Below, one piece after another: positions 9,045 to 46,113 of a stretch of 64,000 nucleotides of DNA (positions are counted from its first letter, which is position 1; every line of letters begins with the position of its first letter). This stretch comes from Solobacterium moorei (GTDB lineage Bacteria > Bacillota_I > Bacilli_A > Erysipelotrichales > Erysipelotrichaceae): contig NZ_AP028934.1 of NCBI RefSeq assembly GCF_036323475.1, forward strand, positions 372,001-436,000, in the 5' to 3' direction. Both the position numbers and the translations under genes were made by a program. The notes under the pieces were generated by a model that was given only the letters and a program-made list of their open reading frames with translations, made no database searches and was not told where the DNA came from.

Positions 9045-10586
9045 ATGGCAGATAAAATTATCGTCTTAGATTTTGGAAGTCAATACAACCAGTTAATCGC
9101 ACGACGTATTCGTGAATTTGGAGTTTATAGTGAACTTCATCCAGGAGATATGACACTTGCGGAAATCGTCGCAATGCAAGATGTTAAGGGAATTATTTTC
9201 TCTGGTGGCCCAAACAGCGTATATGAAAAGGATGCACCTAAGTGTGATCCAGCCATCTTCACATCAGGCTTACCTATTTTAGGTATCTGTTATGGTATGC
9301 AGATGACACACTTCATGAATGGTGGAAATGTTACACCATCCGATAAGAAGGAATATGGTCGTACAGAAATCACAGTAGATACATCATCCCCATTATTTGC
9401 TGGTTTACCAGAAAAGCAGATTGTTTGGATGAGCCATGGTGACCAAGTATCTACACTAGCAGAAGGATTCCATTCGATTGCAAGTAGTGATACATGCCCA
9501 TTTGCCGCAAGCGCAAACGATGAAAAGAAGATCTACACATTACAGTTCCACCCAGAAGTACGTAACTCTGAGTATGGACTGGATATGTTAAGAAACTTTG
9601 TATTCAATATTGCTAAGGCTGAAAACAACTGGACAATGAAGGATTTCGTAAACCAACAGGTAGAAGAAATTAGAGCACAAGTCGGTGATGATAAGGTATT
9701 ACTAGCACTATCAGGTGGGGTAGACTCATCGGTTGTAGCTGCTTTATTAGATAAGGCAATTGGTAAGAATCTATACTGCATGTTCATCGATCATGGTCTT
9801 TTACGTAAGGGTGAAGCAGAAGGTGTTATGGAAACATTCACACGTAATATGTCACTCAACCTCATTAAGATTGATGCAAGAGAACGTTTCTTGAATAAGC
9901 TTGCTGGTGTATCAGACCCTGAGCAAAAGCGTAAGATTATTGGTAGTGAATTTATCTACACATTCCGTGATGAAGTAGCCAAACTCTTACAAGGAACAGA
10001 TATTAAGTGGTTAGCACAAGGAACACTTTATACAGACATTATTGAATCAGGAACAAAGACAGCACAGACAATTAAGTCGCATCATAACGTAGGTGGCTTG
10101 CCTGAAGATATGAACTTCAAGCTCATTGAACCATTAAACAAGTTGTTCAAAGATGAAGTACGCGCGTTAGGTACAGAGTTAGGATTACCAGAAGAAATGG
10201 TATGGCGTCAGCCATTCCCAGGCCCAGGACTTGGTATCCGTGTACTTGGGGAAATCACAGAAGAGAAGCTAGAAATCGTTCGTGATTCAGACTTAATCCT
10301 ACGTGAAGAAATCCGTAATGCAGGACTTGAAAGAGATATCTGGCAGTGCTTTACATGCTTACCAAATATCCGCTCTGTAGGTGTTATGGGAGACCAACGT
10401 ACATACGACTACACAGTCATTATCCGTGCAGTTACATCTATCGATGGTATGACAGCAGACTGGGCAAGAATCCCATACGACGTACTCGATAAGATCTCCA
10501 CACGTATTGTAAACGAAGTAAAACATGTAAACCGTGTAGCCATGGATATCACATCCAAGCCACCGGGAACAATTGAATGGGAATAG
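9045..10586 (+). CDS. guaA: GMP synthase (glutamine-hydrolysing)
   Basis: This 513-residue enzyme makes GMP from XMP, ATP and glutamine in the cytoplasm. The N-terminal glutamine amidotransferase domain has the nucleophile Cys in GICYGMQ (about residue 86) and the FHPE triad segment near 170. The ATP pyrophosphatase domain has the P-loop ALSGGVDSS near 222, and the C-terminal dimerisation domain ends in the canonical TIEWE. Length is normal and the gene is complete. TAGGAGATTAGA precedes the start. Its last codons are a well-known integration site for genomic islands, and the following 12 kb look like one. Confidence 0.97.
10572..10585. repeat. Left attachment-site copy at the guaA 3' end
   Basis: The 14 bases ATTGAATGGGAATA cover the last guaA codons and are repeated exactly at 22423-22436. 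This is the expected signature of an island integrated at guaA. Confidence 0.75.
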
Positions 10587-18349: not shown

Positions 18350-19069
18350 ATGATGGAGGGGAAAAATGAATTGTTTTTAAAAATTAATAACATTAAAAAA
18401 TCTTTTGGAAGTGGAGATTCAAAGCAGGAAGTACTTCGCGGAGTTAATTTTAGTGCGAATAAAGGAGAAATATGTTTATTATTAGGACCATCCGGTTCTG
18501 GTAAGTCTACTTTGTTAAATATTATTGGTGGTATTGATGAGTCAGATTCAGGAGAGATTTTAATAGACGGTGAATCCTTAAGAGAAAAAAGTGAGAGATA
18601 CTTAACCATGTATCGCAGAAAACACCTTGGTTATGTGTTTCAAATGTATAACCTTATCTCTAATTTAAACGTGGTCGAAAATATTGAAGTGGGGGCCTAT
18701 TTATCTGATAATCCATTAGAAGTAGATGATCTACTACATACTCTTGGATTATACGAACACCGTTATAAACTACCAAATCAGTTGTCAGGTGGTCAACAAC
18801 AAAGGGTGTCTATTGGAAGGGCGATTGTAAAAAAACCGGATATTTTACTGTGCGATGAGCCTACCGGTGCCTTGGACTATAAGACTTCTAAGGAAATTCT
18901 AAGCTTGATTGAAGAAATTAACCATAAATATGGAAATACTATTTTGATTGTTTCTCATAATGAAGCTTTGAAGCATATGTCAGACCATGTCATTAAGCTT
19001 AGAGATGGAAAAGTGCACGAAGACTATAGAAATGATCATAAAATTTCTGCAATAGAATTGGAATGGTGA
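18350..19069 (+). CDS. ABC transporter ATPase (MacB/LolD-like)
   Basis: This 239-residue ATPase has Walker A GPSGSGKST near residue 45, a Q-loop VFQMYNLI near 93, the signature LSGGQQQR near 145 and Walker B ILLCDEPTGALD near 167. The sequence fits the MacB/LolD/FtsE subgroup, whose members pair with FtsX-like permeases and act on peptides, antibiotics or the envelope. AAGGGAG lies before the ATG; an in-frame ATG at 18366 is an alternative. The permease gene overlaps its stop region. Cargo of the guaA island. Confidence 0.88.
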   Translation: MMEGKNELFLKINNIKKSFGSGDSKQEVLRGVNFSANKGEICLLLGPSGSGKSTLLNIIGGIDESDSGEILIDGESLREKSERYLTMYRRKHLGYVFQMYNLISNLNVVENIEVGAYLSDNPLEVDDLLHTLGLYEHRYKLPNQLSGGQQQRVSIGRAIVKKPDILLCDEPTGALDYKTSKEILSLIEEINHKYGNTILIVSHNEALKHMSDHVIKLRDGKVHEDYRNDHKISAIELEW

Positions 19070-21723
19070 TTTCTATGAAAAGAAAGAAAAATATTTTAAA
19101 TCGAAGGATTTTTAAAGAATTAAAGGGAGGGCTTCCTAAATATTTTGCCATAGGAATTTTTTTGACTTTAATGATTGGTTTTATCTCAGGCCTTTATGTG
19201 GCGAATGGTAGCATGGAGCAGTCGCTAAATAGATTTATGCTGTCCAATAAATTGGAAGATGGACATTTTGAATTAAAAGAAAAAGCGAATGCAGATTTAT
19301 TATCTAAAATTCAAAGTGGAGAAAAGGCTAATCTGAAAGAGTACTATTTGCATAAGGCAAATGACGAGTTTGATAAAACCTTTGAAAAGGAATTTAAAGA
19401 ACAGTTTGAAGCGGAAAGCAAACGACAGTATGAAAAATTATTATTGAGGCAAGGTTTAAACAAAGAAAAGATAGCTCAGGAATTGAATCTTGGATTTGAA
19501 AAATATAAACAAACAGATGATTATGCAAAAAGCTATAAAAAGGCTTATGACAAAGCCTATAGTGAGGGCCGAGAAAAAGTAAAACAAGAAGTCGATGCAG
19601 AATATAAAAAAGTGGAAAAAAAATTTGACTTAAATGATGCTGACGTTAAAGCGGTTCCGGTAACGGTTCATCCTTTCTTTTATAAAAATGAGGTCGAGGA
19701 TTACAACTTAGACGGGAAAAAGGATGGAAAAATTCGACTTTATCAAAAGACAGATGAAATCAACCGAGCGGATGTTCTTGAAGGAAGATTACCTGAAAAC
19801 AAAAACGAAATAGCGATTGACCGAATGCATGCAGATAATGTGGGCTTAAAAGTTGGGGATCGTATAAAGGTCGGAAAGAAAATGTATACGATAAGTGGAC
19901 TTATTGCTTATGTGAATTACTCCACTTTGTTTGAAAAAAATACAGAGGTCGTGTTTGATGCAATCACTTTTGATATAGGAATGGTCACAGGTGAAGCCTT
20001 CCAAAATATTGTTGAAGATACGCATTATTCTTATGCTTGGACGTATAAATCTAAACCAAAGGATAAATATATAGAAAAAGAATTATCGGATTCTTTTATT
20101 AAAGTTTTGGCAAGCCAAGTTATTACTGATGAGAATGAGATAAAAGACTATTTGCCTGCTTATGAGAATCAAGCGGTACAATTTGCTCCTAAAGATATTG
20201 TAAAAGATAGAGCTTGGGGAGGGCTTTTGCTCAGTATTTTAATGGTAGTCATTGCCTTTATTATTGCCATTACTACAACTAATACCATAAATATGGAAGC
20301 TTATCAAATTGGGACTTTGAAAGCTCTTGGCTATACGAAAGGGGAACTTATAAGGCACTATATCGCTCCTCCAATATTTGTTACTCTTATAGCAGCAATA
20401 CTGGGAAATATCTTAGGATATAGTGTCTTTAAAGACGTAGTTGTAAACCTTTATTACAATTCCTATTCTTTACCAAGTTATAAAACTCTTTGGAATAGTG
20501 AAGCTCTTATAAAGACAACACTAATTCCTTTGACGATTATGCTATTAGTAAATTTGATTGTAGTATCTCATGCTATGAAATATTCAAGCTTAGATTATCT
20601 AAGAAGAAATTTCAAGAAGGACAAAGCAAAAAGAAGTATCAAATTGCCGAATTGGAAGTTTTTTAGTAGATATAGAACAAGAATTATTTTACAAAATATT
20701 CCTAATTATTTCATGCTGTTTATCGGAATCGTATTTGTCTCTATTTTGTTGTCACTAGCTATTGGATTACCAGATTCTCTAAACTACTACAAGAGTCATT
20801 CTTCTGATATGATGATTGCAGACTACCAATACATCTTGAAAGACTACAAAGATGATGGAAAAATAATCAGTACTAATACGGAGAAAGCAGAAAAATTTTC
20901 TTTAACGATTCTTTCAAGGAAAGGCAAAGAGCATGAAGAAGATATTAACCTCTATGGTCTTGCTGACAAGAGTTCTTATGTGAAAATCAATCATTTAGAA
21001 AATCTAAAGGAGAATGAAGTATATATTACAAAATCATATCAGGACAAGTTTCAGGCTAATGTGGGAGATACTATTATTCTTAACGAAAAATATGAGAATA
21101 AAAGCTATGAATTTAAAGTGATTGGAATTTACGATAAATCTGCACAACTTGGTGTATTTATGCCGATAAAAAAGAGTAATGTTTTATTCGGCAAAGAAGA
21201 AGGTTTCTTTAGCGGCTATTTATCAAGTCAAAAAATTAATGATATAGACGAAAATTTGATCTACACTGTAATTACAAAACAAGATATTACAAAAATGGTG
21301 GATCAGATGGAACATAGTATGGGTTCTTTTGTAAAATATTTTCAAGTTTTATGCTTCTCTTTGGCGTTTATATTAATGTTTCTTTTGACCAAGATTATTA
21401 TTGAAAAAAATAGTAATGCTATTTCGATGACAAAAATTTTAGGATATACCAATAAAGAAATCTCAAAGCTTTATATCAGTTCAACAACGATATTAGTGAT
21501 ACTGTTTACATTTTGTGCTGTGTTTATTGGAAATACAGTTATGAATTATTATTGGCAATCGCTGATGAGGCAGATGAGTGGTTGGTTTGAATATCGTATC
21601 TCTACCATAGGATATGTAAAAATGTTATTAATTATTTTTGCTGCCTATTTCGTTGTAGTGAAGCTAGATTTTAGGAGAATTAAGAAAATTCCTATGGATG
21701 AAGCTTTAAAAAATGTAGAGTGA
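19063..21723 (+). CDS. FtsX-like ABC permease, large
   Basis: This protein of about 886 residues has an N-terminal membrane segment (residues 25-45), a long charged extracellular region (about 75-380), three membrane segments near 390-500, then a second FtsX unit with an anchor near 545 and three segments near 765-870. It is a double-FtsX permease partner of the preceding ATPase. The extracellular part includes a highly charged, Lys/Glu-rich helical stretch (about 85-190) likely to be a coiled coil. The frame opens at 19063, overlapping the ATPase stop; the ATG at 19075 (MKRKKNIL) is equally plausible. Substrate is unknown. Confidence 0.85.
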   Translation: MVISMKRKKNILNRRIFKELKGGLPKYFAIGIFLTLMIGFISGLYVANGSMEQSLNRFMLSNKLEDGHFELKEKANADLLSKIQSGEKANLKEYYLHKANDEFDKTFEKEFKEQFEAESKRQYEKLLLRQGLNKEKIAQELNLGFEKYKQTDDYAKSYKKAYDKAYSEGREKVKQEVDAEYKKVEKKFDLNDADVKAVPVTVHPFFYKNEVEDYNLDGKKDGKIRLYQKTDEINRADVLEGRLPENKNEIAIDRMHADNVGLKVGDRIKVGKKMYTISGLIAYVNYSTLFEKNTEVVFDAITFDIGMVTGEAFQNIVEDTHYSYAWTYKSKPKDKYIEKELSDSFIKVLASQVITDENEIKDYLPAYENQAVQFAPKDIVKDRAWGGLLLSILMVVIAFIIAITTTNTINMEAYQIGTLKALGYTKGELIRHYIAPPIFVTLIAAILGNILGYSVFKDVVVNLYYNSYSLPSYKTLWNSEALIKTTLIPLTIMLLVNLIVVSHAMKYSSLDYLRRNFKKDKAKRSIKLPNWKFFSRYRTRIILQNIPNYFMLFIGIVFVSILLSLAIGLPDSLNYYKSHSSDMMIADYQYILKDYKDDGKIISTNTEKAEKFSLTILSRKGKEHEEDINLYGLADKSSYVKINHLENLKENEVYITKSYQDKFQANVGDTIILNEKYENKSYEFKVIGIYDKSAQLGVFMPIKKSNVLFGKEEGFFSGYLSSQKINDIDENLIYTVITKQDITKMVDQMEHSMGSFVKYFQVLCFSLAFILMFLLTKIIIEKNSNAISMTKILGYTNKEISKLYISSTTILVILFTFCAVFIGNTVMNYYWQSLMRQMSGWFEYRISTIGYVKMLLIIFAAYFVVVKLDFRRIKKIPMDEALKNVE

Positions 21724-21856
21724 GTATCACTAAAATGACGAGCTTTGAGGGAAGAAACTATATTAGCGAGGAATCGAGCAGTCACAGGGCATCTAAAGAA
21801 ACAAACACAAAGAAAGAGCCCAGATCTAGGACTGTAGAAAAAGCATAAAATTATAG

Positions 21857-22024
21857 CAAATAAAAAGATTTGAACCTATCCTACTTCCACTAATCTATTA
21901 TTTTGCACTAACATTCTTGATGAAACAGACCGAAGAAAAGTGGCTGCTAGAAAAATTTGGAGATAGATATGTTGAATATTGTAAGAGGGTGAATAGAATC
22001 ATTCCTTGGCGTAAATATAAATAA
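21857..22024 (+). pseudogene. Isoprenylcysteine methyltransferase-like protein, C-terminal fragment
   Basis: Fifty-five codons without start read a hydrophobic segment then TEEKWLLEKFGDRYVEYCKR and IPW, the usual end of the isoprenylcysteine carboxyl methyltransferase/phospholipid methyltransferase membrane family. The N-terminal membrane part is absent. It is another piece of island debris. Confidence 0.6.
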
Positions 22025-22078
22025 ATATATGCTTTGCATAATAAATTAACAAAGAAAAACAGGGCGCAATAAAATTAG

Positions 22079-22261
22079 TTGGGCGCCCAAGTGAATTTAT
22101 ACAAAATAGGAAAAGAAGTGAGAAGTGCTATTGAAAAAATTGGTGGCACTATGTCGGAAGATTTGTCTGTTCCAGAGAAAAGCATTCAACAAATAGAAAA
22201 AGAACAAATGAAACGTCTAAAGGATAAAGCGAAAAAGGGCAAATTGATGTTGGATGAATAA
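22079..22261 (+). pseudogene. DinD (DNA-damage-inducible protein D) C-terminal fragment
   Basis: Sixty codons from a TTG, with no ribosome binding site, read KEVRSAIEKIGGTMSEDL and PEKSIQQIEKEQ, matching the C-terminal region of DinD as I remember it. The KilA-N/BRO-like N-terminal body of DinD is missing. The stop codon is followed within 42 bases by the 23-bp direct repeat. Confidence 0.6.
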
Positions 22262-22302
22262 TATTTGTCCAAAGAAAATCATTCATATTGTAGTATCACC
22301 AT

Positions 22303-22325
22303 TGATACTGTTTTGATACTAAAAA
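22303..22325. repeat. 23-bp direct repeat, copy 2
   Basis: It is identical to 17179-17201. It lies about 100 bases inside the right end of the island. Confidence 0.8.
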
Positions 22326-22422
22326 ACTCTAAAACCACAAATAATAGGTATAGAAATAGCTAAAAACAGAAGCTAAAAAGATATTGATATAAAATTAAAG
22401 AAACAAATATGCCATGGTAATT

Positions 22423-22436
22423 ATTGAATGGGAATA
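22423..22436. repeat. Right attachment-site copy (attR)
   Basis: ATTGAATGGGAATA repeats the 14 bases at the guaA stop codon. It is followed 12 bases later by a terminator that is likely the original guaA terminator. Confidence 0.75.
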
Positions 22437-22448
22437 AAATCTAATAAG

Positions 22449-22485
22449 CCCTGTACATTAGTTGAAAGATGTACAGGGATTTTCT
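22449..22485 (+). terminator. Probable original guaA terminator
   Basis: CCCTGTACAT pairs with ATGTACAGGG, followed by ATTTTC. No complete gene ends just upstream, but the attR copy of the guaA end does, so this hairpin was probably 30 bases behind guaA before the island inserted. Confidence 0.8.
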
Positions 22486-22543
22486 CTTATTCAAAACAAA
22501 AGTGATACAATGTATTCAATAGTGATAAGGGGAATAAATAATT

Positions 22544-24682
22544 ATGTTAAAAAACCCGCGTTGTTTATATGAAAGTAGTATAGATAATTTTATAGCAATA
22601 GACCGAGATACTATTTTTGGAAAGTTATGTGAAGGTTATCATGGAGATACTCTTACTACAACAAGAGAAGCTTGGTTAAATGAGATAGAGATTCTGCAAA
22701 ATCAATTATTGTTATGGAAAGACTCGAATGGTCAGATTATTTTCGAGTACGATATCCCACGATTAGGGAAAAGAATTGATGTAGTATTACTATTAAAAGG
22801 GATTATTTTTTGCCTTGAGTTTAAAGTTGGCGAATCAAAGATAATTGAAAATGATATTGATCAAGTCCTGGACTATGCTTTGGATTTAAGGAACTTTCAT
22901 AAATTTAGTGAATCTAAAGTAATCGTCCCAATTTTAATTGCGACAAAATACCAAAAACATTCTTCAATCATTCAGAAATCTGTATATAACGATAAAGTAC
23001 TGAATCCACTTGTGACAGGTGAAGGTGGTATTCAGGAGCTTATAAACAAAGTGATAAGTTTATATCCAGATGAAGAAGATATAGATAGCAACTGGCTTAT
23101 TAGTCCTTATGCACCAACACCAACAATTATAGAAGCAGCTAGAACACTTTATGAAAGTCATTCTGTAGAGAACATCACAAGACATGAAGCTGATAAGGTT
23201 ATGACTGATACTACAATTGCGTACATTCTTGATGTTATCAAACGTAGTAAAGAAAATGGTGAGAAGAGTATTTGTTTTGTAACTGGAGTTCCGGGTGCTG
23301 GAAAAACATTAGTTGGTTTAGATGTGGCTGTAAAGCAGACATACCGAGGGACTGATGCACCAGTCTTAGATGAAGGTGCGATATATCTATCGGGGAATGG
23401 TCCTCTAGTTGCAGTACTGAATGAGGCTTTAGCACTTGATAATTATACAAAGTGTAAAGCTAAAGGTGAGAAGAAGAATAAATCTGACTCCAAGCGAGAG
23501 GTAAGTAAGTTTATACAAATCATTCACCGATATAGAGATACCATGCTTGCAAAGATTAAAAATCCTGTTGAAAATGGCATTTTAGAAATTGATGAGGCTA
23601 AAGCTGTAAAGATGCAAGATGCAGGATATGGTGAAGTTGAGCATGTTGCAATATTTGATGAAGCACAAAGATCCTGGACGCATGAAAGATTAATGAATTA
23701 TCTAAAACGAGGAGGAACATACGGAAATAAGCTTAAGGTTCCTAATTTTCCTATGTCTGAAGCATCATTCCTTATTTGGTCACTTGATCAACGCGAAGAC
23801 TGGGCAACTATTGTATGTCTAGTAGGTGGAGGACAAGAAATCAATACAGGTGAAGCAGGTATTTCAGAATGGATTAAATCATTAAATGAGACATTTACGC
23901 ATTGGAAGGTTTATATCTCTCCAAAATTAACAGAAGCTGAATATGCGGAAGGACAAGTTAATGAATTATTAAAGCATAATCCAAATGTTACTTACTCTGA
24001 TAGTTTACATTTAGGAGTTTCTTTACGCTCCTATAGAGCAGAAAAGTTATCAGCTTTTGTACATGCACTTTTAGATATCAATGGTAATGCAGCTTCCATT
24101 TTTGTAGAGATAAAAGATAAATATCCGATTGTATTAACTAGAGATATGGAAAAAGCTAAGAAATGGCTGCAAAGTAAAGTGAGAGGAACAGAAAGAACAG
24201 GCGTTCTAATTAGTAAAGAATCTGCAAGATATAAACCATTAGGTATTCATGTATTACCATCTGGTGATGAGGATGCGGTGCATTGGTTCCTTGAAGATAA
24301 ACAAGATACTAGATCTTCTAATTATCTAGAGGATGCTGCAACTGAAATTCAGGTTCAAGGATTAGAGTTGGATTATACTTGTCTTTTGTGGGATGCGGAT
24401 ATGCGTTATGAAAACGGTAAATGGCATTTTTACCGTTTCAATGGAAAAACTGCATGGAAAGAAATTACTAATAATAAAGAAACTAGTTCAGAACGTATTA
24501 AATATATGTTAAATGCGTATAGAGTACTTCTAACACGTGCAAGAGTAGGAATGGTTATTTGTGTCCCAGAAGGTAACGGTACCAAGAATCCTAATGGTTA
24601 TTGGGAAGATAGTACACGATTACCAGAGTATTATGATGGTACTTACGAATATTTAAGAAGTTTAGGAATTGAAGAGATTTAA
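22544..24682 (+). CDS. DUF2075 ATPase/helicase with N-terminal PD-(D/E)XK-like nuclease
   Basis: This 712-residue protein has an N-terminal region (residues about 60-110) with the text KRIDVVLLL...FCLEFKVGES, the D-x(n)-ExK pattern of restriction-like nucleases. A SF1-type ATPase follows: Walker A TGVPGAGKT near 248, Walker B IFDEAQRSW near 370, and a late helicase segment AYRVLLTRARVG near 660. The DUF2075 family is described as Schlafen group 3-like or viral-type helicases. The role could be DNA repair or anti-phage defence; neither is shown. A NUDIX gene follows with 4 bases between, so they form an operon. Confidence 0.8.
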   Translation: MLKNPRCLYESSIDNFIAIDRDTIFGKLCEGYHGDTLTTTREAWLNEIEILQNQLLLWKDSNGQIIFEYDIPRLGKRIDVVLLLKGIIFCLEFKVGESKIIENDIDQVLDYALDLRNFHKFSESKVIVPILIATKYQKHSSIIQKSVYNDKVLNPLVTGEGGIQELINKVISLYPDEEDIDSNWLISPYAPTPTIIEAARTLYESHSVENITRHEADKVMTDTTIAYILDVIKRSKENGEKSICFVTGVPGAGKTLVGLDVAVKQTYRGTDAPVLDEGAIYLSGNGPLVAVLNEALALDNYTKCKAKGEKKNKSDSKREVSKFIQIIHRYRDTMLAKIKNPVENGILEIDEAKAVKMQDAGYGEVEHVAIFDEAQRSWTHERLMNYLKRGGTYGNKLKVPNFPMSEASFLIWSLDQREDWATIVCLVGGGQEINTGEAGISEWIKSLNETFTHWKVYISPKLTEAEYAEGQVNELLKHNPNVTYSDSLHLGVSLRSYRAEKLSAFVHALLDINGNAASIFVEIKDKYPIVLTRDMEKAKKWLQSKVRGTERTGVLISKESARYKPLGIHVLPSGDEDAVHWFLEDKQDTRSSNYLEDAATEIQVQGLELDYTCLLWDADMRYENGKWHFYRFNGKTAWKEITNNKETSSERIKYMLNAYRVLLTRARVGMVICVPEGNGTKNPNGYWEDSTRLPEYYDGTYEYLRSLGIEEI

Positions 24683-35056: not shown

Positions 35057-38000
35057 ATGAAACATATTAATGAACTTATTGGCATTTTAGAAGGTGCTAT
35101 TTTTGACGATATAATAAATAGCAATGAAGTTGACTGTATCAAAAAATGGGTTGATAAAAATAGAAATCTTACTAATGATATATTGCATATTGAACTAATT
35201 GAAATGATAGACAATGCTATTGATGAATCGAAACTTAGTGATGATACTAAATCTTCTATCTATGCAATTTGTAAAAAAATTTTATCAGACACAACCGATG
35301 CACATGCTAAAACCTATGAACTAAATGGAATTATTAAAGGAATTATTTGTGATGGGAAAATACATGACATTGAGTTTGAAAAACTAAGAAAGTGGATTGA
35401 TTCATATGGCCACATTGTAAAAGAGTATATGCTAGGTGAAAAACTATGCAATGAAATAGAAAATATTATAAAACAAAATTCTTTTGCAAAAATTGATCAA
35501 ACAGAAGTAATTAAATATTTTGATAAGATTGTAAAGAATATTGCTTTTGAAGAAAAATTAGATTATTTATGTAAACTTACAGAAGAGAGAAAAATAATTG
35601 GAGTGGAACTAATTGATATATTAGATAATGAAACTGCAATTAAAGAAATCCACAGCAGGGCAGAGAGAAAATTAATTCAAATGATGAACTCATATAGTGG
35701 ATATTGTGCAAAGTCCGAAATTATCATTATTTCTTTAACTCTCATTGCTATGCTTGCATATAATGGAAATTTTTACGATAGTGTAAGAGAAACATATCAA
35801 ATCCTTTATTCAAAATATACTGAACAGAAAGTTGAAGGGGTGATTAGAGATGTATTATCTAATTACAAATATGATTCTGAATCAAATAGTAGAGGAAGAA
35901 GAATAAATACTGTATTGGAAAATTCAATTGTCCCACAACCTTTTTTACATGGCTTTTTTGATTTTATCTATGATATCTATAAATTAAATTTTGAATATAG
36001 TCTCCCTGATGACTTACAGGAGGACTTTGCCTTTGTTTTTGATTGGCTAAAAAAATCGATACAAACAACCGGTGATGACATATCCATAAATGTAACTAAG
36101 AAAACATATAAGTTGATCGCTACAACTAAACAGTTAATTAATAGCGCTGATGGCACGGAAGCTTTAATCAGACTAAGTAGTATTATAGTAAAGCTAATAG
36201 ATAAGAGATTTTGGAATCGAAATATCAAAGTTTCTAATCCATATTTAAAAAAAGGATATGAAAGCTGGGAAAAGAGTATTAAAGATCCGAATCATGCATG
36301 GTCAGAAAATACGAGGTTAAAACAGGGACTACGGTCTAAATGGGAAGCAAAATTTATATTAATGGATGACTCTGTGCACCTGATTACACCAATTCATCGG
36401 ATAAAAGCAGATTATGATTATAGAGAATTAGCTATTGTTGTTATGAATGGTAACGAAGAATTATATAGAAACAATACTTGTGATATACGAGAGATTATTG
36501 GTGGGTATCAAATTAATACAAATAATATTGAAATCACTAAGCCATTAGGGAAAGTTACCTATAAGTTAATGGAAGGTAGCAGGGTAATTTATGATAGTGG
36601 AGATAAACTATATCGAGATTGTATTGTTTTTAAAGATGATAATCAGGAATTTAAGCAAGAAATAAAAAATAATACAGATTATGAAGGGAAAATAATTATT
36701 GCATATCAGGACAGCAATAGTGATTGTGAAATGATATGTAAGAAAGAATACTTTTCTTTAGGATATCAACTAGTAAAGTTTGGTGATGTAATACAAATTG
36801 GAGATACACTTTTCAACTTTTCCTCGATGAATGAACCTGGTATTTTTGGTGATAAATATCTGAATTGTTATGTTAGACAGGATAAACAAAATAAGCTGTT
36901 GCCTGTATATTCGGGAATTTGCTATGTTATGTTTGAGGTGGATAATTCTTCAAATAAATTTGAAATTTTTATCAATGGTAAGATTTATAGACTGAAAGAT
37001 CTTGAATTTAGAACGATTGAAAAATTAGGTAGAACACAATATGTGATCAAACTTGAAATTCATAAATCAGACATCTATAGAATTGAAGTTAATCAATTAC
37101 TGCCTGAAAAAGTGGAATGTGTTTTAAAGAAAGAGTTTGTGTATGATACATTGCTCGAATATTCAAGTGAATTAATAAATAGATCGCAATATAAAGTTAA
37201 TTTTAAGTCTCATCTTGCAAATAAAAACTTTGAGATAACGGTAGATAGTAGCAATTTCAGATTAGATTTTATTCAGTTTGATCTTCACGGGAATAAATAT
37301 TGTTATTTAATTCCTTTTGAGTTTAAATTTTATCAAATCGACAATGAGAAATGGCACTTTGTAGATGAAGATATTTGGGTAGATGATATCAATGAAAATA
37401 CTGTCTTAAACATCTATAATACACAATTTGATAGTGTATTCATTTTGACTGATGTAGGTAAAATGAAAGATGATGAGATCAGAATAATCAATAAAGACTT
37501 TTATAAACAACTTAAGATACATTTTTTAATTACATATTCTGATTTATACAATTTTGTAAGTTTAATATTTACGGAAAATGGAAAACCAAAATTTTTAATA
37601 CGAATTTATAATAGATGCGTTATTGACTCTGAATTAACACAAATACAATGTGTTGATTATCCAAAAAAAATAGCGGTTACTCCAGTATACTGCGGAAAGA
37701 ATAAAATCTATTATGAAATCAAAAATAAATCTGGTGAAAAAATATATAAGAGTAAACTATTGGAAAGTGGAGAAACTGATTTTTTGAGCGAATTTGAATC
37801 ATTTAAAGAATATACTTTGATTTTTTTCGAAAAGACAAAGAAGTTGCAGTTAAAACCAAGACCTCTATACGAAGTAAATAAAACTTTTTATGCAAGAGAG
37901 GATCTTACAGGGAAAGTGTTCAAAATATCTGATATTTATATCCATAAAACTATTAGGGGAGTATTTACTGAAAAACATTATGAAACGAATAATTACTATC

Positions 38001-38278
38001 TCAAATTTCTAAAATTACTTAATTTAAAAGAGGGTATATTTGAAGGCGAAATTTATAGAAAATATTCAACGGGGAATTACTATCTATCAAATATCAACCC
38101 AGTTGAGATAGAACTTTGCAGCGGTATCATAAATGATTCAGTTGAAATTTATATGGCAAATGAAGGGGATGGACTACTATTTGACTATGAGCATAGAGGA
38201 GTTTTAAATGCTATGGATTCACAGACGGCATCAGATATATTCATGTATACAGTTGTATTAGAGGATAATTTAGAATGA
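35057..38278 (+). CDS. Large defence-operon protein with TerB-like repeats
   Basis: I do not recognise a named family for this 1073-residue protein. Two related N-terminal units (residues 12-33 and 94-115) share the pattern 'G-(I/A)-D--I---E---(I/L)-KW(V/I)D', which is typical of TerB-like helical domains. Residues to about 400 look mainly helical; the remaining 670 are rich in beta-type, aromatic and Lys/Asn text, like repeated beta-sandwich modules. No nuclease or ATPase motif or membrane segment is visible. Its stop overlaps the helicase start (ATGA), so both products are made together. The size and partner recall DruH of Druantia type III, but I cannot confirm homology. Confidence 0.65.
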   Translation: MKHINELIGILEGAIFDDIINSNEVDCIKKWVDKNRNLTNDILHIELIEMIDNAIDESKLSDDTKSSIYAICKKILSDTTDAHAKTYELNGIIKGIICDGKIHDIEFEKLRKWIDSYGHIVKEYMLGEKLCNEIENIIKQNSFAKIDQTEVIKYFDKIVKNIAFEEKLDYLCKLTEERKIIGVELIDILDNETAIKEIHSRAERKLIQMMNSYSGYCAKSEIIIISLTLIAMLAYNGNFYDSVRETYQILYSKYTEQKVEGVIRDVLSNYKYDSESNSRGRRINTVLENSIVPQPFLHGFFDFIYDIYKLNFEYSLPDDLQEDFAFVFDWLKKSIQTTGDDISINVTKKTYKLIATTKQLINSADGTEALIRLSSIIVKLIDKRFWNRNIKVSNPYLKKGYESWEKSIKDPNHAWSENTRLKQGLRSKWEAKFILMDDSVHLITPIHRIKADYDYRELAIVVMNGNEELYRNNTCDIREIIGGYQINTNNIEITKPLGKVTYKLMEGSRVIYDSGDKLYRDCIVFKDDNQEFKQEIKNNTDYEGKIIIAYQDSNSDCEMICKKEYFSLGYQLVKFGDVIQIGDTLFNFSSMNEPGIFGDKYLNCYVRQDKQNKLLPVYSGICYVMFEVDNSSNKFEIFINGKIYRLKDLEFRTIEKLGRTQYVIKLEIHKSDIYRIEVNQLLPEKVECVLKKEFVYDTLLEYSSELINRSQYKVNFKSHLANKNFEITVDSSNFRLDFIQFDLHGNKYCYLIPFEFKFYQIDNEKWHFVDEDIWVDDINENTVLNIYNTQFDSVFILTDVGKMKDDEIRIINKDFYKQLKIHFLITYSDLYNFVSLIFTENGKPKFLIRIYNRCVIDSELTQIQCVDYPKKIAVTPVYCGKNKIYYEIKNKSGEKIYKSKLLESGETDFLSEFESFKEYTLIFFEKTKKLQLKPRPLYEVNKTFYAREDLTGKVFKISDIYIHKTIRGVFTEKHYETNNYYLKFLKLLNLKEGIFEGEIYRKYSTGNYYLSNINPVEIELCSGIINDSVEIYMANEGDGLLFDYEHRGVLNAMDSQTASDIFMYTVVLEDNLE

Positions 38279-41200
38279 AAAAACTTAACCCAATCGAGAA
38301 GTCACGTTATATTACGAATAGATATAAAGAATATTTGAAATCATCATTTAATTTTGGTGAAGGAAGGCTACAAAATTTATTCTTAGAAGAATTAAAGAAA
38401 GAGAATTTATTCAAGGGTCCGTATGTTGATATGAATTTTCCTTTTCAAAGGGGAAAAAATATTAAATCTTTGATTGATGAAGGGATTATATGTGAGTCTT
38501 TTCGAAAACTAAATGATATTAACTTTACTAGACCTTTATATTCTCATCAAGAAGAAGCAATACGCATTATTGGGAAAGGACATAGTGCAGTAATTACTAC
38601 GGGAACAGGTTCTGGGAAAACTGAAAGCTTCTTGTATCCAATTCTTAACGATTTACTTTTTGATGTTGAGAAAGGAAATAAGGAAGTTGGAATACGCGCA
38701 ATTTTTCTTTATCCAATGAATGCACTTGTTAATGATCAAATAGAACGAATTAGAAATATTCTATCAACATGCCCGGAGATAACATTTGGTTTTTTTACTG
38801 GAGAAACACCAGAAAAAGCAACATCAAATACAAGAAAAAAGTTGGGTGAAGAAAATAAAGCTATTATACCCGATAATGAACTAGTATCAAGAGAAGAAAT
38901 ACGTAATAATCCTCCTCATTTGTTATTTACAAACTATTCAATGCTGGAGTATCTATTAATACGTCCAAATGATTATTCTCTTTTTGAAGAGGATAGATTA
39001 AAGAATTGGAAATTTGTGATACTAGATGAAGCACATACTTATAATGGATCATTGGGGATTGAAATATCATTATTATTGCGAAGACTGACAGGCTTGGCAC
39101 AAAAGCGCCCAAGGTTTATATTGACTAGTGCAACTTTAGGACGACAAGGTAAATCAGAAGGGGATATCATCAAGTTTGCAAATAACTTAACATCAGCTGA
39201 TTTTGAGCTTGATGATATAATTTTCTCAAAAAGAATTGATCTAAAAGGACAAGGGCTATACAGAGTTTTGGGGAGTGATTATATAGCATTAAAAAATAAC
39301 CTTGAATCTTTAGATAATATTCAACAAATAACAAATAAATATTATTCTTGCCAGTCTTCGGATATACGTGAAGTTTTATATGAATTACTATCCAAAGATA
39401 TAAATGTTCATGAATTATGTGAATTGTTAAGAAACGGTGCAAAGGAATTTAGGTCACTTTATCAAAAATTTAAAGAATTTGTTTTAGAGGAAGAACTCAT
39501 AGCTTTAATTGATATTATCAATAATGCTGAAAAAAATGGGATTGGGTTATTCGATTTGAAATATCATTCTTTTGTACGTCCACTTTCCGGTGCATATATT
39601 ACATATGGGAAAGAGCCTAAATTAACCCTCACAAAAACTAATGAAATTGATGGAATGAAAGCTTTTGAGATTGGTAACTGTCGATTTTGCAATTCAATTT
39701 ATATTATTGGAAAAATAAAAAAAAGAGAAAGTGATGGATTGAGTTATCTTCTACAAAATAAGGAAGTAGATATTTATGAAAATTATGGAAATGATCAATT
39801 TGTAAGATTAGATTATTTCTTGCTTGAAAATGTTATTAGTGAAGATGAGTCAGAGAAAGAACAACTCGAGGAATATAGTATTTGTGCAAAATGTGGTGAA
39901 ATCCATGAGCCAAGTAATCTAAACGCAAACGGTTGTAATTGTGGAGATGATTACCGTTTTATTGCTTATCTTGTTCCACATGGGAATAAGAAAGATGAAT
40001 TTTCAATCTATAATAATATTACTCAATGCCCATGTTGTGGACATAAAGGTAAAATGGGGGTAGTAAAAGCATTGAATATAGGTAAGGATGAAGGAACAGC
40101 ATTAATAGCACAAACATTATATGAGGCTATTGATGAGGATGAGCAAGAGCCTATAAGTGTTAAGAAAATTTCACTAAAATCCATAGATAACCTTTCTAAG
40201 AAGTTACCAGAGAAGAAGACTAAACAATTCCTTGCATTTTCAGATAGTAGACAGCAAGCAAGTTTTGCTGCAGTCTTTTTCGATTCTAACCATGTCCGTA
40301 TGTTAAGGAAACGCTTGATATGGGAAATTATTGTAAAAAATCAATTTAAAGATATGACTGTTGATGAACTCGCTTCATATCTTACGGAAGAAATAAAGAC
40401 AAAAGATCTATTTCAAAATGATATGAATTCCCATAAAAATGCATGGGCTGCAATTATGGTAGATCTATTAAAAGTGGATGGTTCATATGATGGCGAAGCT
40501 CTGGGCTTATATTATTTTAACTTAGATATTCAACATATACTTGATCTGTTAGATTATGAAGAAATTGAAGATTTATTTTCAGAGCTTGGTTGCAATATGA
40601 ATAAGGATGAATTAAATACCCTTATGCAAATCGTTCTATCAGTATTTAAAATAACACCTGCAATTAGCTATGCTAAGTCTACACTTACGCCAGAGGAAAA
40701 AGAGAATTTTTTAGGTTATAGACAGTTTAACAACTATGTAATTGAAAAAGGTAGTCAGGGTAAGAGAGGCACTAGAAGTTTTTTGCCAATTAACAAAAAT
40801 GATAATGGTCAAGTTAGATTTGTAAAAAAAGTATTTGATTGTTCTTCGGGAAATGCAATAAAGATACTACAATATATTTTTACTATTTTAGTTCAAGGAA
40901 ATGAGTGTTGTAAAAGCGATCCCCTATTAGTAAAGCATGATAAGGAAGATTCATACCAAATAAATGTAAGCAGGTATATTGTTAAGAATTATAAGACGTC
41001 TAAATTTTATCGATGCAATAAATGTGGAAGACTGACGCCGTACAATCTCAGAGGAAAGTGCCCTCAAGATAACTGTAGTGGAACATTGATAGAGACTGAT
41101 CCAGATAAAGTTTTATCAAATAATTTTTATCGTAAACAATATAAAGAGAAAAAAATAGAACGTATTGTTATTCAAGAACATACTGCACAACTTAATAGAA

Positions 41201-43395
41201 AACAAGCAAGGGACTATCAAGTTGATTTTAAGAATAAAAAGATTAACATTTTAAGTTGTTCTACAACTTTTGAAATGGGTATTGATATTGGCGGGTTAGA
41301 AACGATTTTTATGAGAAATGTTCCACCAACTCCGGCAAATTATGTGCAGAGAGCTGGACGCGCAGGTAGAAGAAAAGATAGCGCTGCATATATTCTTACA
41401 TATTGTGGAACGGGATCGCATGATTATACATATTTTTCGGAACCGGAAAGAATGATCTCAGGAGTGATAAATCCGCCGTACTTTAATGTGCTAAACAAGA
41501 AAATCATAGTTAGACATCTAATGGCAGCGAGCTTAGGATATTATTTCAGATTGTATCCAGAACTATTTAGTAACTTAGATGCATTTATCTTCAATGGTGG
41601 AGTAGAACGATTCAACGAATATATCCAATCACATCCAGATGATTTAAATCAATATATAAATCAAAAAATTCTACCGGAAAAACAGTATGATAACTATAAG
41701 GATTTTAAATGGATCGAACAGATGGGCGGAGAAGATGAAAAACTGAGTAATTTTGCTGATACAATCTGGCAGATAATGGATGAATACGAAGAGGCTAAGA
41801 AACAAGCAATAGCCGATGACCGTGGGGCAGACTCAGATTATTACAAAGGTCAAATTGAGGCACTAAAGAAAGAAAATGTTTTAGAGTATTTATCCAAATA
41901 TTGCGTTATTCCAAAGTATGGATTCCCAGTAGATGTTGTGGATCTCCAAATTTATGAAAAAGGTGTGCCACAAAATAACTATGCAATGAGCAGAGATTTA
42001 AAAGTTGCTATTTCTGAATATGCACCAGATTCTGAGGTCATTGTTGATAAAAAGAAATACACATCTAAATACATCACTCTTAAGAGAAATTCAGAGTTTA
42101 CAAAGAACTGGTTTGTTAAATGCCGACATTGCGAAAAAATCAATATATTTGTTAGCAGAAATGAACGAGCAAAATGTAAGTATTGCGGGCAGGAAATCTC
42201 AACAGAGATAAATGAATACTATATTGAACCGCGCAATGGATTTAAGACAGGTGAAGGCAAAGAAAGCTTACATCTTAAACCAAAAAGATCATATGCAGGT
42301 GAAGTTATCTATCTTGGCGGGGGAAAACCTGATGATAAGAAACTTGCTATTGGAAATTGTATGTTTATTGAAACGAGTAGTGAAGACAGAATGCTTGTAA
42401 TGAACAAATCAAGTTTCTATTTGTGTCCAACATGTGGATATAGTGAGATTGGCAATACCATAGGTAGTTTCTCTGCACCACAAGATAAGGTAAAGCATAA
42501 AAATTTCAAACAATATTCATGCTCATGCGATACATTAGAAAAGGTTCACTTAGGTCACAAATTTGAGACTGATGTCACAAGATTTACTATACCTATGCTT
42601 TACAGTAATGAAAAAACTGGTTATTCAGAAGCTTTAACATTTCTATATGCTTTCCTTGAAGGGGTAAGCATTGCATTAGGTATAGAACGATTTGATATTA
42701 ATGGTGTCGTAGAAGAAAATTTTGAGATGAATAGCTATGATGTACTTCTTTATGATAATGTACCTGGTGGTGCAGGACATGTTAAACGTTTACTTAGCAA
42801 GGAAGCAGTTGTAAGATCCTTGCAAGAAGGCCTAAATAAAGTTAGCAAAGATTGTTGTGATGAAAATACATCTTGCTATAATTGTTTGAGAAATTATTAC
42901 AATCAACCCCATCATGGTTTATTAGTGCGAAAATTTGCAATAGATAAAATTAAACAACTATTACTAGCTATTGAAAAATCAGCAGAATCTTTCCGAAATA
43001 ATAATTCTGGTTGGCTTAACCAACAAAAAGCTCCGAACAGTGAAATGCAACTCATTCTAGGAACAGATGGTAGAAATCCCGGTACAGAAACAGCAAGTGA
43101 GATTTGGTCTGATTTATTAGATGATTGTTTTGATGATAACGAAGTTTCTCTTATTACACAACTTAAGAATAATAGTCCAGAAATGATAGCGGCTCCGTAT
43201 TATAGAAAGACGGTTAAGATAAAAGAAACAGGTGAGGAATTCATTACGAGTCTAATTTGGTACGATAAGAAAGTTATATTATTCCTAAATGATGTACACA
43301 ATGATTATCTATTATCAATTAAGACAGGTTGGAATGTTTATAGTACTAAACAAGGTTTTGATGCGATGGAATTACTTTCAAAGGTGGGTAAATAG
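38275..43395 (+). CDS. DEAH-box helicase with zinc clusters and DUF1998 domain
   Basis: This 1706-residue SF2 helicase has Walker A TTGTGSGKTES near residue 113, DEAH in ILDEAHTYNG near 250, and a C-terminal motor with STTFEMGIDIG near 1003 and QRAGRAGRR near 1025. Cys pairs of zinc-binding type occur near 474, 536-555, 585, 914-938, 1283-1305 and 1383. The end has a DUF1998 region with PGGAGHV near 1500 and a Cys cluster (CCDE..SCYNC) near 1525. DUF1998 helicases include MrfA (DNA repair), DrmA/DrmB of DISARM and DruE of Druantia. It is embedded in an operon with overlapping or abutting genes, which favours defence. AT-rich, Asn/Lys-rich codon use. Confidence 0.88.
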   Translation: MKKLNPIEKSRYITNRYKEYLKSSFNFGEGRLQNLFLEELKKENLFKGPYVDMNFPFQRGKNIKSLIDEGIICESFRKLNDINFTRPLYSHQEEAIRIIGKGHSAVITTGTGSGKTESFLYPILNDLLFDVEKGNKEVGIRAIFLYPMNALVNDQIERIRNILSTCPEITFGFFTGETPEKATSNTRKKLGEENKAIIPDNELVSREEIRNNPPHLLFTNYSMLEYLLIRPNDYSLFEEDRLKNWKFVILDEAHTYNGSLGIEISLLLRRLTGLAQKRPRFILTSATLGRQGKSEGDIIKFANNLTSADFELDDIIFSKRIDLKGQGLYRVLGSDYIALKNNLESLDNIQQITNKYYSCQSSDIREVLYELLSKDINVHELCELLRNGAKEFRSLYQKFKEFVLEEELIALIDIINNAEKNGIGLFDLKYHSFVRPLSGAYITYGKEPKLTLTKTNEIDGMKAFEIGNCRFCNSIYIIGKIKKRESDGLSYLLQNKEVDIYENYGNDQFVRLDYFLLENVISEDESEKEQLEEYSICAKCGEIHEPSNLNANGCNCGDDYRFIAYLVPHGNKKDEFSIYNNITQCPCCGHKGKMGVVKALNIGKDEGTALIAQTLYEAIDEDEQEPISVKKISLKSIDNLSKKLPEKKTKQFLAFSDSRQQASFAAVFFDSNHVRMLRKRLIWEIIVKNQFKDMTVDELASYLTEEIKTKDLFQNDMNSHKNAWAAIMVDLLKVDGSYDGEALGLYYFNLDIQHILDLLDYEEIEDLFSELGCNMNKDELNTLMQIVLSVFKITPAISYAKSTLTPEEKENFLGYRQFNNYVIEKGSQGKRGTRSFLPINKNDNGQVRFVKKVFDCSSGNAIKILQYIFTILVQGNECCKSDPLLVKHDKEDSYQINVSRYIVKNYKTSKFYRCNKCGRLTPYNLRGKCPQDNCSGTLIETDPDKVLSNNFYRKQYKEKKIERIVIQEHTAQLNRKQARDYQVDFKNKKINILSCSTTFEMGIDIGGLETIFMRNVPPTPANYVQRAGRAGRRKDSAAYILTYCGTGSHDYTYFSEPERMISGVINPPYFNVLNKKIIVRHLMAASLGYYFRLYPELFSNLDAFIFNGGVERFNEYIQSHPDDLNQYINQKILPEKQYDNYKDFKWIEQMGGEDEKLSNFADTIWQIMDEYEEAKKQAIADDRGADSDYYKGQIEALKKENVLEYLSKYCVIPKYGFPVDVVDLQIYEKGVPQNNYAMSRDLKVAISEYAPDSEVIVDKKKYTSKYITLKRNSEFTKNWFVKCRHCEKINIFVSRNERAKCKYCGQEISTEINEYYIEPRNGFKTGEGKESLHLKPKRSYAGEVIYLGGGKPDDKKLAIGNCMFIETSSEDRMLVMNKSSFYLCPTCGYSEIGNTIGSFSAPQDKVKHKNFKQYSCSCDTLEKVHLGHKFETDVTRFTIPMLYSNEKTGYSEALTFLYAFLEGVSIALGIERFDINGVVEENFEMNSYDVLLYDNVPGGAGHVKRLLSKEAVVRSLQEGLNKVSKDCCDENTSCYNCLRNYYNQPHHGLLVRKFAIDKIKQLLLAIEKSAESFRNNNSGWLNQQKAPNSEMQLILGTDGRNPGTETASEIWSDLLDDCFDDNEVSLITQLKNNSPEMIAAPYYRKTVKIKETGEEFITSLIWYDKKVILFLNDVHNDYLLSIKTGWNVYSTKQGFDAMELLSKVGK

Positions 43396-43397
43396 TC

Positions 43398-45101
43398 ATG
43401 GCGATAATGATACCGGACATACCAAAAGAATTTAACGTCAAAAGTCGTGAAGGCTCAATGTTTGAAGAATTGAGTAGGCTATCTGATGAATATTATGTTT
43501 TTCATTCGTTTGAAATTGTTACTTTAAAGGGTAATGTGATTACAGAAAGTGAAACTGATTTTGTGATTTTTCATCCTAGAAAAGGATTGATTTGTCTTGA
43601 GGCAAAAGCAGGACAAGTTAAATATGAAAAAGGATACTGGCAGTATGGAAGTGGCGTGATTATGAAACATAATGGTCCATATTGCCAAGCGAAAAAGAAC
43701 AAGTGGAAACTTAGAGACTACATGATCTCGCACGGGCTGGAATATGAAAGCAATAACTGTAAGAAGATTCATGCAGTATGGTTTCCTGATGTACCGTTGG
43801 ATAATTTCAATAATGTTAATTTACCAGGAGAAGGGGATATTAATATAACTCTTACTGCAGATGCATTTGGACATATTCAAGAATGCATCGATAAGATTTT
43901 TGCCTACGAAGGTCAGGATAGATGTTTAACGAAATTATCTGATCAAAGTGTGAAAAAAATACTGAATAGGGTACTTGCACCATCCTTTAATTTAATATCA
44001 TTACAACAAGTTGAAAAAGAGAGGAATATTAGTGTTTTCAAGCGTTTGTTAAATGAGCAGGTAGCACTTCTTAACTATCTAGAAGATCAAAATAACGCTA
44101 TTATAAATGGACTTGCTGGAACCGGAAAAACAGTTATCGCTGTCGAGAAAGCAAGGCGTCATGCAATTCAAAACCAGAAAGTGTTATTCCTTTGCTATAA
44201 CTCATATTTAAAAGATCATTTACGAGAAGTATATTCAGATCCAAATATTGCATATTATACAGTGGCAGGACTTTCGCAAAAATTTTGTGGGAAAGTTGAT
44301 TATAAAGTTTTACAAGATAAATTGATAGAAATGCTACTTGATGGTACCTTCCCGTATCAGCATGTAATTGTAGATGAAGGTCAAGATTTTGGAAGAGAAG
44401 AAATTGACGAAGTGGAAATTATCAACATACTAAAAGAATTGACGGTTGAAAGTAAAAAACAAAATGGCACATTCTATTTGTTTTATGATAAAAATCAAAT
44501 GGTACAATCAACTGTTATTCCTGATTATATTAAGAATGCTGAATGTAAGTTAACACTTTATAGAAATTGTAGAAATACCGAAAATATCGCATTGACTTCA
44601 TTAAGATTTTTAGGTTCGGACAAATCCCCTAAACTGTACCCAGATGCTGTAGTTGGTGAACACCCTGAAATAGGTATTTGTAAAGGTAAAGACGAAACGA
44701 TTATGCTATTGAATGCAGAAATTGATAAATATGTTGATGCAGGATATAACGATGTTACAGTACTTACTTGTAAGACTGAAGAAAGTAGTGTTATAGCTGA
44801 GTGCTGTAAAGATTCGAAATATAGATATAAACGAGGATATGTTAGATTTACAACTTGCAGAAAATTTAAAGGATTAGAATCTGATGTGATTATTGTCATC
44901 GATATAGATAAGAAATCATTCGATGATGAAGGTAAAATGCTGATGTATGTAGGGACATCAAGAGCTAAATTTAAACTAAGTTGTATCATTAACATGTCGG
45001 AGGATGAATGCCTAGAAATAATGCGGGAAAGAAATGTGAAATCAAATAGAAATATTCGAAAATCATTTGCTACATTTTTTAATTCAAAAATTATTCAATA
45101 A
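43398..45101 (+). CDS. NERD-domain nuclease fused to UvrD-like helicase
   Basis: The 567-residue protein starts with a NERD domain (residues about 15-130): ETDFVIFHPRKGL and LEAKAGQV near 52-75 give the D-ExK pattern of this nuclease-related fold. An SF1 ATPase follows, with Walker A GLAGTGKT near 238, Walker B VDEGQDF near 322, a segment RKFKGLESDVIIVIDID near 495 and MYVGTSRAKFKL near 520. It starts 2 bases after the helicase stop, so it is the third gene of the operon and is followed by a terminator. NERD-helicase proteins recur in defence islands and may degrade foreign DNA. Confidence 0.85.
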   Translation: MAIMIPDIPKEFNVKSREGSMFEELSRLSDEYYVFHSFEIVTLKGNVITESETDFVIFHPRKGLICLEAKAGQVKYEKGYWQYGSGVIMKHNGPYCQAKKNKWKLRDYMISHGLEYESNNCKKIHAVWFPDVPLDNFNNVNLPGEGDINITLTADAFGHIQECIDKIFAYEGQDRCLTKLSDQSVKKILNRVLAPSFNLISLQQVEKERNISVFKRLLNEQVALLNYLEDQNNAIINGLAGTGKTVIAVEKARRHAIQNQKVLFLCYNSYLKDHLREVYSDPNIAYYTVAGLSQKFCGKVDYKVLQDKLIEMLLDGTFPYQHVIVDEGQDFGREEIDEVEIINILKELTVESKKQNGTFYLFYDKNQMVQSTVIPDYIKNAECKLTLYRNCRNTENIALTSLRFLGSDKSPKLYPDAVVGEHPEIGICKGKDETIMLLNAEIDKYVDAGYNDVTVLTCKTEESSVIAECCKDSKYRYKRGYVRFTTCRKFKGLESDVIIVIDIDKKSFDDEGKMLMYVGTSRAKFKLSCIINMSEDECLEIMRERNVKSNRNIRKSFATFFNSKIIQ

Positions 45102-45136
45102 ATTTTAGAATTTTCTATAGTATTTGGATAATATTA

Positions 45137-45178
45137 AAAGGAAGATACCTGACTAACACTAGTCTAGTATCTTCCTTT
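45137..45178. terminator. Terminator of the helicase operon
   Basis: A perfect 12-bp stem AAAGGAAGATAC / GTATCTTCCTTT with an 18-base loop lies 35 bases after the last stop codon. It can act in both directions. Confidence 0.75.
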
Positions 45179-45399: not shown

Positions 45400-45965
45400 T
45401 GATGGTTGCGGTAGGTAAAATAATAACTGTACCAAGAAGGATGGTGTCAAAAGTGAAGATACTGTAATATCCCAGTGAAGATGGTTTGCTCAACCTGCTG
45501 GGGTATCTGGAATGAAGCTCGGGGCTAAGAGAAAGGATACTTTCTTACGGCTGGCTGCATCGAAGTAGTAATACTAGATGAAGGGTGCAATTCCTGAAAG
45601 TAACAGATGGCACACATCATTGTGCAATATAGTCCAGAATACATATCGGTGGAAGAATAGAGGGTTACTTGAATAAAGTGCCTGAATCTTAGTTAGGTAT
45701 ATATTGGCATTATATATAAACCTAAGAATAGCCAATAATCCACTCTGTCGTGAAGCGAAGAAATTCGTGTATAAGATATGGAAGAAGATTCTCTTAATAG
45801 CCTAGAGACAGGTTCTGAGTCAGAAAAAGGAAGATCACAGAACAAATGCTGAAGAGTTGGGTGAAAAGTGTGGGTAATCAATCCCACCAGAGCTTCGTGA
45901 TGAAAGTCTAGGGAAGAGATGCAGGGAATTGCTAACCTTGCACAGCCTCTTTTCTCTCTGTAGGA
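45400..45965 (+). ncRNA. Candidate large structured non-coding RNA
   Basis: There is no sizeable open frame, yet the DNA is richer in G and in compensating helices than its surroundings. Examples: ATATCCCAG/CTGGGGTAT (45467-45475 with 45498-45506) enclosing GGTT/AACC; GAAAG/CTTTC near 45530; GCACA/TGTGC (45610-45625); TTAGGTATATA/TATATAAACCTAA near 45693-45725; GTTCTG/CAGAAC near 45810-45844; GTGGG/CCCAC (45870-45887); and GCAGG/CCTTGC near 45921-45941. Strand is a guess. It lacks a group II domain V, RNase P or tmRNA signatures. Compare with ROOL, GOLLD, OLE and similar giant RNAs. Confidence 0.45.
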
Positions 45966-46113
45966 TAACAATATTTTTGCAATGATGATGTAGGGTGAAT
46001 AAAAGCCCATTACAGTGTTTTCACTTTTAGCATCACATTGGTATTTACATGCATGTCAAAGGATGGTATATTGATGTACCATCTTTATGGAATATATTGG
46101 AGGTGATGGAGTT

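Follow-up and report, generated by a model that had tools for sequence, protein, structure and literature searches.

A candidate anti-phage operon of Solobacterium moorei that combines a DruE-like helicase, a sensor-like protein and a NERD-UvrD nuclease-helicase

Three tightly packed genes of Solobacterium moorei raise the question of whether they form a variant of Druantia type III with an added nuclease-helicase or an anti-phage system of another make, and of how the third gene belongs to the other two. The window analysed here is a stretch of 64,000 nucleotides (contig NZ_AP028934.1, positions 372,001 to 436,000) from a genome that consists of one 2.6-Mb contig. The initial annotation had claimed a three-gene operon closed by a strong terminator. 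The three open reading frames are real (Table 1), with a 4-base overlap between genes 1 and 2 and a 2-base gap between genes 2 and 3, and the operon ends 3′ of gene 3 in a 12-bp hairpin of −25.2 kcal/mol including its flanks. The U tract of this hairpin is short and the hairpin is absent from the list of a consensus terminator scan, and hence we regard it as a likely rather than a certain terminator. The neighbours are a mannose-type PTS IID gene upstream (Pfam) and Sel1/peptidase genes. About 270 bases downstream of the hairpin lies a full-length ROOL RNA, a large structured RNA (45447–46028, + strand; Rfam RF03087, 336 bits; gathering score 99). It was rejected as a component of the system, as it was not found near seven homologous operons. 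In a second defence-like locus of the window (18350–24682), a 239-aa ATPase is of the mad3-like kind (108 bits) and a protein of 712 aa matches the PADLOC candidate PDC-S41 (810 bits).

Table 1. Positions of the operon features within the window
Feature	Position	Strand	Description	Evidence
Gene 1	35057..38278	+	1073 aa, sensor-like protein, new family	ORF, 23 homologous loci
Gene 1, residues 1-160	35057..35536	+	two tandem four-helix repeats	AlphaFold model, alignment, phrog_3989 E 9e-17
Gene 1, residues 165-410	35549..36286	+	conserved helical core	BLASTP and profile matches
Gene 1, residues 430-1073	36344..38275	+	Ig/FN3-like beta-domain array	AlphaFold model, fold comparisons
Gene 2	38275..43395	+	1706 aa, DruE-like YprA-family SF2 helicase	PADLOC DruE1 613 bits, Pfam, tree
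Gene 2, residues 1458-1538	42646..42888	+	MZB/DUF1998 zinc domain	Pfam PF09369; model matches MrfA
Gene 2, residues 1577-1706 (C-ext)	43003..43392	+	putative docking site of the gene 3 product	co-occurrence, kinship with the ARMADA II C-terminus
Gene 3	43398..45101	+	567 aa, NERD nuclease-UvrD-type SF1 helicase fusion	PADLOC RTasNERD-Hel 210 bits, invariant catalytic residues
Hairpin	45137..45178	+	probable intrinsic terminator	folding, z -5.8

Gene 2 places the operon among known systems. Its Pfam domains are DEAD, Helicase_C and the MZB/DUF1998 zinc domain, and its helicase motifs, like many of its CxxC pairs, are fully conserved across 11 homologues. The description of gene 2 as an SF2 helicase with Cys pairs and a DUF1998 end was therefore right except for its last element: DUF1998 is not terminal, and ∼130 residues follow it. 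Among PADLOC families, DruE1 (613 bits) ranks above DruE3 (542 bits), and the next family outside Druantia reaches 95 bits. A tree that also included DruE3, Druantia-I-like, ARMADA and MrfA helicases groups those encoded beside gene 1-type proteins as a separate clade (SH-aLRT 100). Within the YprA family, this clade belongs to the defence branch, with the Druantia and ARMADA helicases and not with MrfA. A grouping with the MrfA repair helicases, which the initial annotation had named as evidence against a defence role, was thus not found. Gene 2 is therefore a YprA/DUF1998 helicase of the DruE type, whose clade is distinct from those of DruE3, Druantia-I-like systems, ARMADA and MrfA. Homology thus gives good support to the proposal of an anti-phage system of the Druantia kind, and the operon as a whole is very probably a defence system.

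Gene 1 gave no match in Pfam, NCBIfam or PADLOC. Its AlphaFold model shows a helical half followed by an array of beta domains, which resembles Ig/FN3-type arrays at the fold level; searches with the whole model returned generic arrays of this type only and barely probed the helical half. The two TerB-like repeats of the initial annotation are present as tandem four-helix repeats, but the label TerB lacks convincing support, as Pfam TerB matched a single one of 13 family members, at E 0.033. These repeats instead match the phage family phrog_3989. Relatives of them also occur in a BRCT protein of Vibrio phage K139 (L093, 1159–2064) and in a DnaQ-BRCT protein (L004, 919–2250). The conserved part of the protein is the helical core, and a profile of close homologues recovered this core from divergent proteins paired with other DruE-like helicases (L034, L138, L139, L140 and, weakly, L082). 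The protein in L140 (5821–10116), of 1431 aa and encoded upstream of a DruE-like helicase, has a different N-terminus that by eye resembles a helix-hairpin-helix domain. The N-terminal module of gene 1-like proteins thus seems to be variable. Gene 1 represents a sensor-like family of its own.

A scan of our collection of 84,980 species genomes found gene 1 homologues at 23 loci, mostly in Lachnospiraceae but also in Erysipelotrichaceae, Bacilli MAGs, Acholeplasma and Succiniclasticum. The gene is rare: the 273 genomes searched in the window's family contain two full-length copies, and the 397 of Lachnospiraceae three. Viral contigs gave no gene 1 homologues and only remote helicase homologues. 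The initial annotation had held that its proposal would fall if the three genes rarely occurred together. Where the flank is sufficient, a DruE-like helicase directly adjoins gene 1 in all homologous loci except L033, with the order reversed in L003 and L035, where the helicase lies ahead of the gene 1 homologue; gene 3, on the other hand, is optional and tied to the helicase tail. In one locus (L020, 9632–9708), a c-di-GMP-I riboswitch aptamer on the same strand ends ∼290 bases upstream of the gene 1 homologue, which starts at 10001. The exception, L033 (10001–23183, Succiniclasticum), is a DISARM-like locus. Its gene 1 homologue (35% identity) forms one protein with a GajB-like helicase, next to which DrmA, DrmB, a cytosine methylase and a NERD-UvrD protein are encoded. 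The gene 1 module is therefore shared by two distinct YprA lineages.

Gene 3 encodes an intact NERD nuclease-helicase, as had been proposed. Its NERD part, a PD-(D/E)xK nuclease, is joined to a helicase of the UvrD type, and eight homologues show no variation in the motifs of the SF1 helicase or in residues E52, D54, E68 and K70 of the NERD active site. Its presence follows the length of gene 2. The clade of gene 2 contains long helicases (∼1700 aa) with a C-terminal extension of ∼130 residues (C-ext), which are followed by a NERD-UvrD gene, and short helicases (∼1550–1590 aa), which have neither the extension nor a NERD-UvrD gene next to them. In systems of this type, C-ext and gene 3 occur together in 11 loci, both are absent in 15 and no locus is mixed, across three divergent helicase lineages; the 11 include L013, where gene 3 is a 61-residue fragment, and L014 was excluded from the tally, since its contig stops 269 bases past the helicase. 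The break in L013 (18330–19120) is one into which an integrase-like gene of the opposite strand runs. A genome-wide search of 11 genomes with short helicases found no NERD-UvrD gene in ten and only unrelated copies in the remaining one. L134 and L138 carry a long helicase with NERD-UvrD, and L137, L139 and L140 have neither C-ext nor NERD-UvrD. Compared with the window, the helicase core of L138 is 31–35% identical, its C-ext scores 124 bits and its NERD-UvrD protein is 52% identical. When C-ext alone was used as the query against 397 Lachnospiraceae genomes, it matched one unrelated protein and six helicases, seven proteins in all. Directly after each of the six helicases lies an SF1 helicase gene; four of these genes encode NERD-UvrD proteins, two of them paired with helicases of a third lineage (L150 and L151), and the other two encode RelE-UvrD proteins of ARMADA II. 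The search was not exhaustive, as it missed the diverged C-ext of L021 (G659). The association of C-ext with gene 3 has a Fisher p of 1.3e-7 when kinship is ignored, whereas counting kinship leaves three independent pairs, all concordant, with p 0.25. We therefore rejected the counts of long and short helicases as phylogenetic proof; the rule has no exception in this set, yet falls short of statistical proof.

The same tail connects the operon to ARMADA type II. An hhalign comparison relates C-ext to the terminal domain of ARMADA II helicases with a probability of 95.2% (E 2.5e-8, score 53, against 21 for the best of 200 column-shuffled controls). C-ext matches neither the preceding ARMADA II segment nor the tails of Druantia-I helicases or DruE3. 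As the C-ext profile failed to pick up ARMADA II in the genus of the window, one genome of which is the MAG uncultured Erysipelotrichaceae RUG11183, the kinship suggested by this match is remote. Bell et al. reported that many ARMADA II helicases end in extra inactivated Vsr- and EEP-type domains, that the next gene encodes a GajB-like helicase needed for defence, and that defence requires all four genes, including the UvrD-type one (PMC12458937). We found no statement in that paper tying the terminal domains to the GajB-like helicase of the next gene. A Vsr fold for C-ext, a label taken from the work of Bell et al. and from the match to ARMADA II, was not backed by a fold search, in which a 298-residue model (mean pLDDT 69) matched MrfA and DrmAB via its DUF1998 part and otherwise unrelated folds. 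Like ARMADA II, the operon thus has a YprA helicase with a related final domain and an adjacent UvrD-type SF1 helicase gene; unlike ARMADA II, its SF1 partner bears NERD rather than RelE, the BrxHII helicase and PglX methylase were not found beside it, and the two YprA helicases belong to different clades.

Other known systems share single elements with the operon. RTasNERD-Hel, the best PADLOC family for gene 3, has the same fusion of NERD and UvrD, but there is no reverse transcriptase among the three genes and the companion of gene 3 is a YprA helicase. DISARM also has a YprA-type helicase, and in the DISARM-like L033 a homologue of gene 1 occurs together with NERD-UvrD; however, the helicase and DUF1998 of DISARM are separate proteins, DrmA and DrmB, accompanied by a methylase, while the operon has one fused protein, which scores only 58 bits against DrmA, and no methylase. 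In TALON the NERD nuclease is accompanied by TPR-CSD and TBP genes, whereas here NERD is fused to UvrD and has no such neighbours. For Shango, which consists of a TerB protein, an ATPase and a helicase (SngA–C), PADLOC gives only SngC (94 bits, on the helicase domains of gene 2), with no match to SngA or SngB in the operon. Gene 2 is a DruE-family YprA helicase, as found in Druantia generally, by its PADLOC ranking and the tree, and genes 1 and 3 match no PADLOC model of DruA–D, DruM, DruF or DruG of types I and II. We class the operon as a variant of the Druantia/ARMADA lineage, characterized by its new family of sensor-like proteins and its proposed plug-in nuclease-helicase. Searches of the openly accessible literature, which leaves out most subscription papers, found no account of this gene combination. 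Bell et al. also described a Druantia-III-like branch whose DruE-related helicases are mostly devoid of nuclease domains (PMC12458937); the clade of gene 2 may be this branch, and the main text of that paper mentions no link of the branch to NERD-UvrD, C-ext or the gene 1 family.

Our preferred reading is a DruE-like chromosomal anti-phage system, in which gene 1 would be the sensor, C-ext would dock the gene 3 protein and gene 3 would cut. In Druantia type III, DruE is a helicase-nuclease and DruH, which has Ig-like domains, probably acts as a sensor (PMC13192584), and by analogy with the layout of DruH (PMC13192584, PMC13316683) gene 1 is likely an infection sensor or adaptor. A phage product could be bound by its Ig/FN3-like array together with the variable N-terminal module, and the conserved helical core may then license the helicase, as the DruH-like layout suggests. 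Gene 2 would load on phage DNA that contains single-stranded DNA and translocate, like its relatives MrfA and DruE. The presence of gene 3 only with a matching helicase tail suggests that NERD-UvrD plugs into this tail, and from the strict co-occurrence and the related domain of ARMADA II we infer that C-ext is a docking site for a swappable SF1 helicase module. With its active sites intact, NERD-UvrD is predicted to unwind and cut DNA, and its absence together with C-ext from the short-helicase systems points to an effector that is an optional plug-in of the system. We give this whole chain a probability of roughly 0.55.

Three other readings were weighed against it. The operon might be a diverged Druantia type III, in which gene 1 would be a DruH that has lost its sequence similarity and NERD-UvrD would replace the PLD nuclease of DruE3, and we regard this as unlikely. 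The gene order and layout are identical, with a big protein of helical N-terminus and Ig-like domains (PMC13192584) encoded just ahead of a DruE-family helicase, and the helical cores look alike by eye. However, the profile check against DruH, suggested by the initial annotation, was negative: gene 1 matches no PADLOC DruH model, whereas E. coli DruH matches 11, and three sets of hhalign comparisons gave probabilities of at most 0.2%. With no detectable homology and the same layout, gene 1 resembles DruH in layout, not in sequence, and we rejected it as a DruH homologue at the sequence level. Gene 2 likewise lies outside the DruE3 clade and has C-ext only, in place of the PLD nuclease tail, after DUF1998; NERD-UvrD is an extra gene relative to type III, and those systems of the clade whose helicase is short lack both a PLD tail and NERD-UvrD. 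What remains of the proposed Druantia III variant is therefore its layout. A role in DNA repair or stress instead of defence, which could be argued from the mitomycin C repair by the YprA relative MrfA (cited in PMC12458937) and from the gene 1-like repeats of the DnaQ-BRCT protein, is very unlikely: gene 2 does not group with MrfA, the distribution is rare and patchy with divergent partners, the gene 1 module also sits in the DISARM-type locus L033, and restriction-modification or other defence-like genes, picked by eye, adjoin several homologous loci.

The remaining reading concerns the docking step. NERD-UvrD could be an independent accessory and C-ext a regulator of the helicase, for example by autoinhibition, with the two travelling jointly through adjacency in the DNA. 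C-ext ends gene 2 and abuts gene 3, such that a single recombination could move or delete both, NERD-UvrD proteins are known in other contexts too, as in L033, and adjacent operon genes co-occur for many causes besides physical contact, which also counts against our preferred reading. Mere linkage, though, would be expected to leave one without the other at times, while no exception was seen across three helicase lineages, and ARMADA II carries a related C-terminal domain beside a different SF1 helicase; we consider an independent accessory improbable. Returning to the docking reading, we see about an even chance of a broader pattern, in which DruE/YprA helicases are modular platforms whose C-terminal docking domain, in the gene 2 clade and in ARMADA II, recruits an exchangeable NERD- or RelE-type SF1 helicase; the domain and its partner gene would move as a cassette between lineages, and the upstream sensor would be swapped separately, even into DISARM.

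In summary, our analysis defines a sensor-like family exchanged between Druantia-like and DISARM-like machinery, and it makes the recruitment of a partner helicase-nuclease by Druantia/ARMADA helicases directly testable. It also suggests a simple rule, by which the last 130 residues may tell whether a member of this large and poorly understood class of defence helicases pairs with a second motor.
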